Positions 26,827-31,107 of a DNA stretch of 64,000 nucleotides are shown piece after piece (position 1 is the stretch's first letter; every line of letters begins with the position of its first letter). The notes under the pieces were generated by a model. The model made no database searches and was not told the DNA's origin. It saw nothing but the letters and a program-made list of their open reading frames with translations. The position numbers were made by a program, and so were the translations under genes. Source of the stretch: Halobacterium jilantaiense (GTDB taxonomy: Archaea > Halobacteriota > Halobacteria > Halobacteriales > Halobacteriaceae); NCBI RefSeq assembly GCF_900110535.1, contig NZ_FOJA01000001.1, forward strand, positions 2,453,393-2,517,392. Direction: 5' to 3'.

Positions 26827-28620
26827 ATGAGCGACCTGGGGGACTTCGCGGACCACGGCCGCGACACTACCGACGACGCGGACGACGGGAACGCGAGCGA
26901 GGACGATTACGACCGGCCGGAACTGGACGACGTCGGCAGCGACGACGGCCTCGGCGCGCTCGCCGTCTCCGAGGGTCTCCGCATCCACGAGGACGGCCGC
27001 GAGACCGAACTGAAGGCGTACGTCACGGCGGGCAATCGGTCGGCCGTCCGCCTGGGCACGTACCTTGTCGCGCCCTATCCGGGCGGCGAGAAGCTGTTCT
27101 GCAAGATTACCGGCCTGGAGTACGTGCAGGCCTTCGAGAGCGACGACGCGACCGAGATTCACGCCCGGCGCGCGATGCGCACCGACGGCGTCGACGAACA
27201 GGACTACAAGTTCCTCGCGGACCTGGAGCCGGTCGCCGTCCTCTACGACGAGGGCGACGACCTCAAGCGCCGAATGGCCGACCGCGTGCCGAAGCCCGAG
27301 ACCGTGGTTCGGGCGGCCGACGACGCCACCGAAATCAAGACCGGGCTCAAGATTCCGGAGGACGGCGTGTTCCTCGGGCACCTCTCCGTCGGCGGCGAGA
27401 AGGTGCGGACGGCCGCCGAGCCGCCGACCATCGACTACCGCGTGAAAGACGACTACGAGGCCGGCGACCCGCTGGTCTTCCGGCACACCCTCATCGCGGG
27501 CGGCACGGGCTCCGGGAAGACCCACGGCGCGAAGAACGTCCTCCGGCAGTACCTCCACGAGGACCGCCGGTACCCCGTCTCCTCCGGCGGCCCCGAGCGG
27601 CGGATGGCGGTCGTGCAGTTCGACCCGCAGGACGAGTACGCCCAGATGCACGACGACAACCCCGACGCCGACGCCAGCGACGAGCGCCAGTGGGAGACTC
27701 AGGGGCTCGCGCACGGCGGCCACGACGACACCGTCGCGTTCGTCCCGAAGGTCGGGTCGGCATCGTACGCCGCCGACCACCACGCCGCCGAACAGGTCGA
27801 GTTCACGGTGCCGTTCTCGATGGTGCGGGACAACCCCTGGCTGGTCGCGTCCAGCGGCCTCAACGACAATCAGTACGGCGCGCTCCACCTGCTGCTCGGG
27901 CGGTTCTTCGACCAGTACGGCGAGTCCGGGACCTACCGCGAGTTCTGCTCGTTCCTCGACGACCCCGCGCTGAAGGAGGAACTCGACGAGTCCGGGCGCG
28001 TCCACGAGGCGACCTACGAGGCCGTCCTGCGCCGGGTGAACGGCATGCCGAACGGGCTGTTCGACCAGGACGCGCGCTCGATTACGGACCTCGTCGAGGA
28101 CCGCCAGTTCGTGCGCCCGGGTCGGCTCTCGGTGGTGCCGACCTACCACGTCAGCGACTCGCGAGCCGCCGAGACCGTCGTACTCGCGGTGTCGAGCCTG
28201 CTCGTCGACCAGAAGCTCTCGAACGACCCGCGCTACGAGACGATCAAGGAGACGCCGCTGCTCGTGGGGATGGACGAGGCGCACAACTTCCTCTCTGACG
28301 CGGACAGCGTGCAGGCCCGCAAAGTCGTCGGGAAGTTCACCGAGGCCGCCAAGCAGGGCCGCAAGGAGCGACTGGGCCTGTTCCTCATCACGCAGGACCC
28401 GCAGGACATCGCCGACCCCGTGTTCAAACAGGTGAACACCACCGTCGTCCTGAACCTCGGTGACGAGGACGCGATTCAGGCCGTGAACATCCCGTCGTCG
28501 CTCCAGTCGAAGGTCCCCTACATGGAGAAGGGCCAGATGGTCGTCTACTCGCCGGACAACTCCGAGCCCGTGGAGATTCAGGGGCTGGCGACGTGCGTGA
28601 CGCGGCACGGTCGCGACTGA
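26827..28620 (+). CDS. herA: HerA-type ATPase/helicase (DUF87/HAS-barrel family)
   Basis: A 597-residue hexameric DNA translocase-type ATPase. An acidic disordered N-terminus (1-45) precedes a HAS-barrel-like domain (~50-200). Walker A is GGTGSGKT (225-232), followed by 'AKNVLRQYL'; Walker B is 'LLVGMDEAHNFL' (~479-490); the arginine-rich 'RKVVGKFTEAAKQGRKERLGLFLITQDPQDI' region is the sensor motif, and 'NTTVVLNLGDEDA' follows. With NurA it would form the end-resection machine acting alongside Mre11-Rad50. It is not adjacent to nurA, so cotranscription is uncertain. Confidence 0.9.
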   Translation: MSDLGDFADHGRDTTDDADDGNASEDDYDRPELDDVGSDDGLGALAVSEGLRIHEDGRETELKAYVTAGNRSAVRLGTYLVAPYPGGEKLFCKITGLEYVQAFESDDATEIHARRAMRTDGVDEQDYKFLADLEPVAVLYDEGDDLKRRMADRVPKPETVVRAADDATEIKTGLKIPEDGVFLGHLSVGGEKVRTAAEPPTIDYRVKDDYEAGDPLVFRHTLIAGGTGSGKTHGAKNVLRQYLHEDRRYPVSSGGPERRMAVVQFDPQDEYAQMHDDNPDADASDERQWETQGLAHGGHDDTVAFVPKVGSASYAADHHAAEQVEFTVPFSMVRDNPWLVASSGLNDNQYGALHLLLGRFFDQYGESGTYREFCSFLDDPALKEELDESGRVHEATYEAVLRRVNGMPNGLFDQDARSITDLVEDRQFVRPGRLSVVPTYHVSDSRAAETVVLAVSSLLVDQKLSNDPRYETIKETPLLVGMDEAHNFLSDADSVQARKVVGKFTEAAKQGRKERLGLFLITQDPQDIADPVFKQVNTTVVLNLGDEDAIQAVNIPSSLQSKVPYMEKGQMVVYSPDNSEPVEIQGLATCVTRHGRD

Positions 28621-28638
28621 CGGGAACCAGCCACCCCC

Positions 28639-28643
28639 TTTAT
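28639..28643 (+). promoter_or_regulatory. TATA box of the usp gene
   Basis: TTTAT in CCCTTTATCTCGG ends 25 bases before the ATG at 28669; leaderless spacing. Confidence 0.6.
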
Positions 28644-28668
28644 CTCGGGGGGCGTCGAACTGCTAGGT

Positions 28669-29094
28669 ATGACACACGTACTACTTCCCATCGACGGCTC
28701 GCCGCAGTCCGACGCCGCCCTCGAGTACGCGCTCGAAGAGTTCGAAACGGCCGAAATCACCGCCCTGAACGTCATCGACCCCATCGAGGCCGGGTACACG
28801 TCGCAGGCGACGGTGCCGGGCTACTCCGAGGAGTGGTTCGAGCAGTCGAAGGCCGCGGCCGACGAACTGTTCGCGGACGCCCAGGAGGTGGCCGACGAGT
28901 ACGACGTCGAACTGCAGACGGCGACCGAGGTCGGGCGGCCGAGCCGCACCATCGTGAACTACGCCGAGGACGAGGGCGTCGACCACATCGTGATGGGGAG
29001 CCACGGCCGCTCGGGCGTCTCCCGCATCCTGCTCGGCAGCGTCGCCGAGAACGTCGTGCGGCGCTCGCCGATGCCGGTGACCATCGTCCGGTAA
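28669..29094 (+). CDS. universal stress protein (UspA family), ATP-binding type
   Basis: A 141-residue UspA-fold protein. The ATP-binding signature is intact in 'IVMGSHGRSGVSRILLGSVAENVVRRSPMPV' (G-x2-G-x9-G-S), so it probably binds ATP and forms dimers. The N-terminal strand 'HVLLPIDGSPQS' carries the usual D-G-S. It has its own promoter and stands 48 bases after herA. Confidence 0.93.
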   Translation: MTHVLLPIDGSPQSDAALEYALEEFETAEITALNVIDPIEAGYTSQATVPGYSEEWFEQSKAAADELFADAQEVADEYDVELQTATEVGRPSRTIVNYAEDEGVDHIVMGSHGRSGVSRILLGSVAENVVRRSPMPVTIVR

Positions 29095-29255
29095 CTGGCA
29101 GCCCGCACCGACGCCTCCTGCGGACGGCTGGTCTTCTTTCTCGGTCTGTCGCGAACAGCGAGAACGCAGCGTGCCGGCGTCAGCGAACGGGCAGCGAAGA
29201 AGATAGCGTGACGCGGCGGACTGCGGACGTACCGCGCCCGCCGACCTCTAACCGA

Positions 29256-30398
29256 TTAGAGCTCGTTCAGCTTCCGGAGGAGCTGGCCCTCGTACTCCTC
29301 GTCGTGTTCGATGCCCTTCAGCTCGAGGACGTTGCGTTCGAGCTTGTCGAGGGCGACGTGGAAGGAGTTGTCCGCGCCGTAGCCCTCGCCCGTTCCCGCA
29401 ATCTGGCCCTTGTTCGTCCGCAGCCGAATCTGGGACTGAATCAGGGGGGTGCCGCGGAGCTTCTCCTTGTGCTTGGAGAGGCGGACGTGAGCGTGGTGGA
29501 CGCGCATGTCGCCGTACTTGGCGGCGACGTCCTCGATGCGCTCCCGGACTTCCTGTCGGGAGAGCGCGTCCAGCAGGTCGATGTTCGTGATCTGGACGTC
29601 GAGGTGCTCCTCCTCGGTGTAGGAGAGCGCGCGCAGGACGTCCGTCTTGGTGAGGATGCCGCCGACCACGCGGTCGTCGTCCTCGGGCGTGACGATGACG
29701 CCGGAGTAGTCGTTCTCCAGCATGCCCTCAACGGCGTCGCGCACGGAGTCGCCGAGGCTGGCGGTCTCGACGGGGCTGGTCATCTCGTCGTAGACCGGGA
29801 GGTCGAGCAGGCGCTCGACTTCGCCGCGGCGGTCGCCGCGAGTGGTCTTCTCAGTGTCGCGGACGACGAAGTCCACGATGTCGTACCGCGTCACGATACC
29901 GGAGAGGAAGCCGTCGTCGTCGACGACGGGGAGCCGCGAGATGCCGTGCTCGCGGAGGAGGTTGATGACGCGCCCCATCGTCTCGTCCTCCTCGACGGTG
30001 ACGACGTGCTCCGTGTAGATGTCGCCGACGTCGAGGGCGTCGAGGTTCTCCAGGACGGCGGCGAGAATCGCGTCCTCGGTGACGACGCCCCAGAGCTTGT
30101 CGGCCTCGAAGACGGGCGCGATTTTTGTGCCGCCCTCGACCAGCATCCGGGCGGTGTCGCGGACGTCCTCGGTCCGCTCGACCTTGGGCGCGTCCGTGAC
30201 CATGGCGGCGACCTTCGTGTCGTCGCCGATGTGGGACTGAATGAGCTGGCGCTCCGTGACGACGCCGGCGTACTGGCCGGCCTCGGTCACGATGATGCCT
30301 TTCGGGTTCTCGCTCTCGAAGATAGACCGCACTTTGCCCAGTCGCTCTTCGGCTTCGACCTCGATGTAGTCGTTCGTCGCAATGTCAGAGATATCCAT
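29256..30398 (-). CDS. four-CBS-domain protein with a C-terminal HPF/S30AE-like domain
   Basis: A 380-residue soluble protein. Four CBS motifs occupy about 1-58, 66-120, 124-180 and 206-264, forming two Bateman modules that usually sense adenine nucleotides. The last ~110 residues, 'ERIEDVAAKYGDMRVHHAH' then 'VRLSKHKEKLRGTPLIQ', 'RLRTNKGQIAGTGEGYGAD' and 'FHVALDKLERNVLELK', follow the strand-helix pattern of ribosome hibernation factors (HPF/RaiA), including basic Lys/Arg in the second strand. The likely role is nucleotide-gated binding to ribosomal subunits; this is an inference. Only 110 bases separate it from the divergent lycopene-cyclase-like gene. Confidence 0.85.
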   Translation of the reverse strand: MDISDIATNDYIEVEAEERLGKVRSIFESENPKGIIVTEAGQYAGVVTERQLIQSHIGDDTKVAAMVTDAPKVERTEDVRDTARMLVEGGTKIAPVFEADKLWGVVTEDAILAAVLENLDALDVGDIYTEHVVTVEEDETMGRVINLLREHGISRLPVVDDDGFLSGIVTRYDIVDFVVRDTEKTTRGDRRGEVERLLDLPVYDEMTSPVETASLGDSVRDAVEGMLENDYSGVIVTPEDDDRVVGGILTKTDVLRALSYTEEEHLDVQITNIDLLDALSRQEVRERIEDVAAKYGDMRVHHAHVRLSKHKEKLRGTPLIQSQIRLRTNKGQIAGTGEGYGADNSFHVALDKLERNVLELKGIEHDEEYEGQLLRKLNEL

Positions 30399-30478
30399 GG
30401 GCCTTCACTCGGAGAGACGCCCACCATCGTCTTGAACCTTGTTGCGTGTCTCAGTCTACTGGACGACCGGGGGTGGAG

Positions 30479-30482
30479 TTTA
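30479..30482 (+). promoter_or_regulatory. TATA box of the lycopene-cyclase-like gene
   Basis: TTTA in GGAGTTTACTCG lies 26-29 bases before the GTG at 30508, which decides that start over an earlier in-frame TTG at 30439. Confidence 0.5.
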
Positions 30483-30507
30483 CTCGTCGGGGATCGTAGG
30501 TGCGGTC

Positions 30508-30843
30508 GTGCTCCCCGACATCGGCGCGGTGTTCGGCCCGTACACGTACCTGGCCTCCGAGGTGGCGTTCGGGACGCTGGCAGTCGTGTTGCTGTCCCGC
30601 GCGGCGGCGCTGCGGCGCGCGGCCGTCACCGTAGCCGCGCTCTACCCCGTGGCGTACGTCTGGGACTGGTACACGCTCACTATCGGCGTGTTCAGTATCG
30701 AGTTACGGACCGGCGTGGACCTGCTGGGCATCCCGGTGGAGGAACACATCTTCATGGTGGTGGTGCCGGCGCTCGTGGTGGCGTTCCACGAGACGATACA
30801 CGGCCGCGAGCGCGACGACGACCGGGGTGGCGATGGTGTGTGA
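30508..30843 (+). CDS. single lycopene-cyclase-domain membrane protein
   Basis: A 111-residue, three-helix protein. 'PVAYVWDWYTLTIGVFSIELRTGVDLLGIPVEEHIFMVVVPALV' contains the features of CrtYc/CrtYd/CruY-type heterodimeric lycopene cyclases: a PVEEHIF motif with two acidic residues in the membrane interface and an aromatic DWYT. Full haloarchaeal CrtY has two such repeats; here only one is encoded, with a GTG start set by the promoter. It may act as half of an oligomeric cyclase on C40/C50 carotenoids or have lost activity. No other carotenoid gene is nearby. Confidence 0.75.
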   Translation: MLPDIGAVFGPYTYLASEVAFGTLAVVLLSRAAALRRAAVTVAALYPVAYVWDWYTLTIGVFSIELRTGVDLLGIPVEEHIFMVVVPALVVAFHETIHGRERDDDRGGDGV

Positions 30844-31107
30844 GTCGGTAGCGACACCACCAGACACTTAGTTATGTATTACCAACACGTTACTGGGCAC
30901 GGAGCGTGCCCGACCCGACCCACCCACCCGGAACCCGAGCGGTGACGCGGCCCCCTCCGCGGCCGCTCCGCCCTTCGACGCGACGCTCCCCGCCGCGCGA
31001 CCGCGTTCTCGCCGATACGTCCCCGAGTAGGCCGCGCGTTCCACACCCGCAACGAGATTACGACTGGTAACCGCAGGCTGATAGCGGTCCTCCGCCAAGC
31101 GGATGGC

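Follow-up and report, generated by a model that had tools for sequence, protein, structure and literature searches.

Introduction

The closest described system is HibA, a family of ribosome hibernation factors reported by Madru et al. in April 2026 for Pyrococcus abyssi and Thermococcus barophilus (PMC13324472). HibA proteins consist of an N-terminal tandem of four CBS domains (residues ∼1–269) and an HPF/RaiA domain, and are encoded in 47% of archaeal genomes. In P. abyssi, HibA is abundant on 70S ribosomes, was observed on single 70S particles and inhibits in vitro translation; deletion of hibA in T. barophilus lowered stationary-phase 70S by ∼60%, delayed regrowth and doubled the lag (PMC13324472). 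The P. abyssi structures place the tail of the protein in the mRNA/tRNA channel of the 30S subunit and show the CBS disk sampling the peptidyl-transferase centre, the uL5 side and the L1 stalk. The CBS module binds AMP (Kd 12 µM, one per module), ADP and ATP; native complexes were without nucleotide, and neither the binding of ribosomes nor their conformation clearly responded to AMP or ATP (PMC13324472). The other factor found on stressed P. abyssi ribosomes is aSBDS (PMC13324472).

Among haloarchaea, Haloferax HVO_2384 is a CBS protein already reported to carry a hibernation-factor domain; it co-purifies with inactive Pat2, and its residues K311 and K313 are acetylated when cells grow on glycerol (PMC12607858). 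It is not mentioned in the main text of the 2023 Haloferax acetylome paper, and we found no published ribosome phenotype for any haloarchaeal HibA. The idea of a hibernation factor of this type is thus already known, both from the published HibA family and from the earlier description of HVO_2384 (PMC13324472, PMC12607858). Here, we analyse a HibA-like gene of Halobacterium jilantaiense. It lies in a stretch of 64,000 nucleotides, called the window below, for which an earlier note, made from the letters alone, had proposed an energy-sensing hibernation protein.

Results

A single frame under purifying selection

The coordinates proposed in the earlier note, which gave no strand, proved correct: the minus strand carries one open frame of 380 codons at 29256–30398, running from ATG to TAA (Table 1). 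The best-matching named relatives of its product all belong to Halobacterium species, with identities of 77–96%. Changes relative to one Halobacterium sequence (L031) numbered 9, 7 and 63 at codon positions 1, 2 and 3, respectively. Since changes among the closer Halobacterium relatives fall mostly at the third position, purifying selection acts on this frame. An overlapping plus-strand frame of 752 codons (28593–30851) was rejected as a mirror of GC-rich coding DNA, because it is the minus frame that has the four CBS domains, the homologues and the third-position bias.

Upstream of the start codon, the BRE/TATA-like element GCAACAAGGTTCAAG is conserved in Halobacterium and several other haloarchaeal genera, as judged from the upstream regions of 35 homologous loci. 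Its position suggests that the hibA mRNA may be short-leader or leaderless.

The neighbourhood comprises a divergent lycopene-cyclase-like gene (30439–30843, plus strand), which adjoins hibA in 19 of 30 homologous loci and whose translation probably begins a good way past the listed TTG, as well as a HerA-like ATPase gene (26827–28620, plus strand) followed by a universal stress protein (Usp) gene (28669–29094). The Usp gene does not keep its place beside hibA in relatives and the lycopene-cyclase-like gene has no evident functional link to it, in line with the earlier view that the neighbours do not explain the protein.

Table 1. Features of the hibA locus, in window coordinates
Feature	Coordinates	Strand	Basis
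Very probable hibA orthologue, 380 aa	29256..30398	-	ATG at 30398, TAA at 29258-29256; full-length match to P. abyssi HibA 9sr9_H
CBS domain 1	30237..30392	-	Pfam PF00571 match
CBS domain 2	30051..30203	-	Pfam PF00571 match
CBS domain 3, with T170 and D173 of the predicted adenylate-binding motif	29862..30029	-	Pfam PF00571 match
CBS3-CBS4 loop, residues 181-197, corresponding to the PTC loop of HibA	29808..29858	-	Alignment; PTC loop defined in PMC13324472
CBS domain 4, with T250 and D253 of the predicted adenylate-binding motif	29622..29786	-	Pfam PF00571 match
C-terminal HPF/RaiA-type domain	29259..29606	-	Profile searches, predicted structure, Foldseek
Archaea-specific insertion 1, D274-L276	29571..29579	-	Aligns with P. 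abyssi SAL 283-285; PMC13324472
Archaea-specific insertion 2, K313-L319, KLRGTPL	29442..29462	-	Aligns with P. abyssi KFRGVHL 324-330; PMC13324472
K311-E312-K313, lysines acetylated in Haloferax HVO_2384	29460..29468	-	PMC12607858; numbering via putative orthologue L107
BRE/TATA-like element GCAACAAGGTTCAAG	30431..30445	-	∼38 nt upstream of hibA ATG; upstream regions of 35 homologous loci

The protein aligns with HibA from end to end

Searched with phmmer, the window protein matched P. abyssi HibA (9sr9_H) over residues 3–377 (E 1.9e-44), with 31% identity in the CBS part and 25% in the HPF part. The four tandem N-terminal CBS domains that had been noticed in the sequence were recovered by Pfam as four stretches within residues 1–260 (PF00571, E 4.7e-40). 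In an alignment of 70 sequences, T170/D173 and T250/D253 of the predicted adenylate site are conserved, and the two aspartates are invariant in all 70, P. abyssi included. The CBS3–CBS4 (PTC) loop measures 17 residues in both the window protein and P. abyssi HibA.

A full-length AF2 model built from six sequences (mean pLDDT 64) was poor around the domain junction and gave PDB matches through its CBS part only, which resembled the ribosome-bound archaeal proteins SriA/SriB, SriD and Dri. We therefore modelled the C-terminal domain alone. This model (pLDDT 81) retrieved HPF/RaiA/YfiA chains as its top 26 Foldseek matches and superposed on the E. coli hibernating ribosome entry 6h4n with a best VIA-align Z of 12.7 (2.3 Å, 90 residues). 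The fold prediction that the earlier note had suggested as a check thus returned the HPF fold it had anticipated. Profile searches agreed. A profile built from six Halobacterium sequences, over their last 116 residues, found only two significant PDB chains, 9l96 (E 1.1e-22) and P. abyssi HibA 9sr9 (E 2.4e-10), both of them CBS–HPF proteins. A wider profile of 17 sequences, which counts P. abyssi HibA (9sr9) among its own members, reached 9l96 at E 1.7e-42 and weakly touched bacterial RaiA (E 0.38). The resemblance of the C-terminal part to HPF is real and not due to chance. Pfam Ribosomal_S30AE scored 21.4 bits on residues 268–361, below its own cut-off of 23.7, so that the domain is missed at the standard Pfam cut-off; the Pfam scan of the protein reported no domain beyond CBS and S30AE. 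Beyond the HPF core the chain runs on for 19 residues and ends in a single predicted helix.

Both archaea-specific insertions of HibA have counterparts in this domain. In P. abyssi, insertion 1 faces the uS19 tail and insertion 2 contacts uS12 and the decoding bases (PMC13324472). Few positions of the window protein are as well conserved as the residues of insertion 2 and a GEGYG strand.

The end-to-end alignment, the equal PTC loop, the two insertions and the adenylate-site aspartates place the protein in the HibA family. We consider it very probable that the gene is the Halobacterium orthologue of hibA, encoding a ribosome hibernation factor whose CBS disk and HPF tail would hold an inactive 70S ribosome. 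Membership is assigned here from architecture, fold, loop and insertions, and ribosome binding by the window protein would be expected by analogy.

HibA is near-universal in Halobacteria and has a patchy second group

Of the 194 Halobacteria genomes sampled, 193 gave an HPF-domain match with the 17-sequence profile. Its one match in the genome that contains the window was hibA. Pfam S30AE had no match in this genome, not even hibA, and is therefore too insensitive here to exclude a separate HPF. The same genome also encodes aSBDS.

Two or more HibA copies are present in about a third of haloarchaeal genomes, as counted from the 194-genome profile table. In a tree of the 70 sequences rooted on P. 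abyssi, the window gene belongs to a near-universal clade of ∼380-residue proteins. A second haloarchaeal group (L036–L048 and L050–L055) is patchy, and its members are mostly ∼400 residues long (386–413). Their CBS3–CBS4 loop is Gly-rich and spans 28–42 residues, compared with 17–18 in the first clade and P. abyssi. HibA homologues also occur on 42 plasmid records; among the matches listed, identity is 63% for the top one and 38–44% for the others. We did not find this second copy, which about a third of haloarchaea have and whose PTC loop is in most cases longer, described in the literature.

A haloarchaeal relative in large-subunit structures

A haloarchaeal HibA-like chain is present in PDB entries 9l96, 9l98, 9l9c and 9l9v, and is 40% identical to the window protein in the CBS part and 44% in the HPF part. 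The same four entries contain a haloarchaeal uL5 sequence, on which we base calling them large-subunit structures. Neither haloarchaeal uS12 nor uS7 was detected in them at E 1e-40, which suggests that the entries may have been modelled without a small subunit. No paper for 9l96 and its sister entries was found. As the 9l96 chain is a paralogue and its entries lack detected uS12 and uS7, 30S docking in halophiles is left unproven by these structures. The long loop could, we infer, anchor the second-group protein to the free 50S subunit.

Acetylated lysines at the decoding-centre insertion

The lysines acetylated in HVO_2384 were located through a putative Haloferax orthologue, L107, whose mass and pI (42,520 Da, 4.87) compare with 42,521 and 4.87 published for HVO_2384 (PMC12607858). 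L107 is 65% identical to the window protein over all 380 residues, and the two are numbered alike. Residues 311 and 313 of L107 are the lysines of the motif HKEKLRG, of which K313 opens insertion 2 and K311 flanks it. A lysine at position 311 is found in 44 of 49 first-clade sequences, as opposed to 6 of 20 in the second group. We did not find this coincidence of the acetylated lysines with insertion 2 noted in the literature.

Acetylation at these sites could weaken ribosome binding. That it forms a second input besides adenylates, with loss of charge at the decoding centre tuning the interaction, seems to us rather unlikely; if true, it would join acetyl-CoA status, possibly via Pat2, to ribosome storage. 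Such control is made less plausible by the finding that P. abyssi HibA with both insertions deleted inhibits translation in vitro undiminished (PMC13324472), and the acetylation may be incidental.

Discussion

By analogy with the Thermococcales proteins, the HPF tail would plug the mRNA/tRNA channel of the 30S subunit and the N-terminal four-CBS disk would fill vacant tRNA sites of the 50S subunit, at the peptidyl-transferase centre, the uL5 side or the L1 stalk. Tail and disk would together keep the 70S ribosome intact and inactive, with translation blocked. Closed to mRNA, tRNA and nucleases, the ribosome would be guarded from degradation until regrowth. The CBS module would probably take up one adenylate between CBS3 and CBS4, with AMP preferred. 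We infer that the Halobacterium protein acts as Thermococcales HibA does in binding, inhibition and 70S preservation, and any energy control would likewise be presumed.

The hibernation role proposed in the earlier note thus receives strong support, by homology, from HibA (PMC13324472). Its energy switch fares less evenly: the P. abyssi CBS module does bind AMP, ADP and ATP, but AMP and ATP had no clear effect on ribosome binding (PMC13324472). The dimerisation of ribosomes that it also considered is not expected, given that HibA sits on single 70S particles and that we noticed no dimerisation domain.

How far the CBS module senses anything at all bears on a variant of the HibA explanation, in which the disk merely fills vacant tRNA sites, adenylate binding is vestigial and there is no energy switch. 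The nucleotide-free native complexes and the lack of a clear effect of AMP and ATP on binding fit this (PMC13324472), whereas the 12 µM affinity for one AMP per module in P. abyssi (PMC13324472) and the invariance of the ribose-type aspartates D173 and D253 in 70 sequences speak for a site still in use. We put it at somewhat less than an even chance; as HibA function is kept, this estimate overlaps with that for the main explanation.

Two readings depart further from hibernation. RadB and GINS23 have each been found to co-purify with Pab0961, and a cited personal communication has Hvo_2384 interacting with both RadA and RadB in Haloferax (PMC3820547). The protein might then be mainly a regulator of DNA replication and recombination, its CBS domains binding adenylates and controlling RadA/RadB or GINS, with ribosome binding secondary; the HibA authors themselves raise this link as one to a possible sequestering partner (PMC13324472). 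We regard it as very improbable, because Pab0961 is HibA itself, abundant on 70S ribosomes and able to block translation (PMC13324472), because the C-terminal domain has a typical HPF fold, and because partners in a pulldown are not functions. Hardly more credible, and if anything slightly less so, is a sensor of adenylates in which, in halophiles, the HPF-like domain no longer binds ribosomes and is left only as a scaffold or a means of dimerisation. The domain is indeed divergent, falling below the Pfam cut-off and sharing 25% identity with P. abyssi HibA; yet its fold is intact, insertion 2 and the GEGYG strand are highly conserved, and a haloarchaeal homologue is present in large-subunit PDB entries.

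HibA ranks among the main factors of ribosome storage in archaea. Its gene is near-universal in Halobacteria, which include tractable laboratory species. To the picture of HibA, haloarchaea add acetylated lysines at insertion 2 and a patchy second copy, whose PTC loop is longer in most cases and of which a solved relative appears with the large subunit.

Comparison with known systems

Bacterial HPF/RaiA/YfiA proteins are folded like the C-terminal domain (Z up to 12.7, ∼90 residues), but have no CBS module, are ∼12–22% identical to the domain in structure alignments and lack the archaeal insertions (PMC13324472). Four-CBS modules that bind archaeal ribosomes, as in the CBS architecture of the window protein, are known from Dri of Pyrobaculum and SriA–D of Methanosarcina. 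The description of Dri gives it two CBS modules and no HPF, in contrast to the one CBS module and HPF domain found here, and Sri chains match the window protein over the CBS part only. HVO_2384 is known for its acetylation and as a partner of Pat2, and a ribosome role was only suggested for it (PMC12607858); it is likened to the window protein through the putative orthologue L107, and the KEK motif is common to both. The 9l96 chain has the same domains, but is a second-group member with a longer CBS3–CBS4 loop. Closest of all is HibA itself (P. abyssi Pab0961, Q9UYR4; T. barophilus F0LKU5): identity to the P. abyssi protein is only 25–31%, and the window protein comes from a halophile and is known here from sequence, but the order of four CBS domains and HPF/RaiA is the same, and P. 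abyssi HibA shares with it the PTC-loop length, both archaea-specific insertions and the adenylate-site aspartates.
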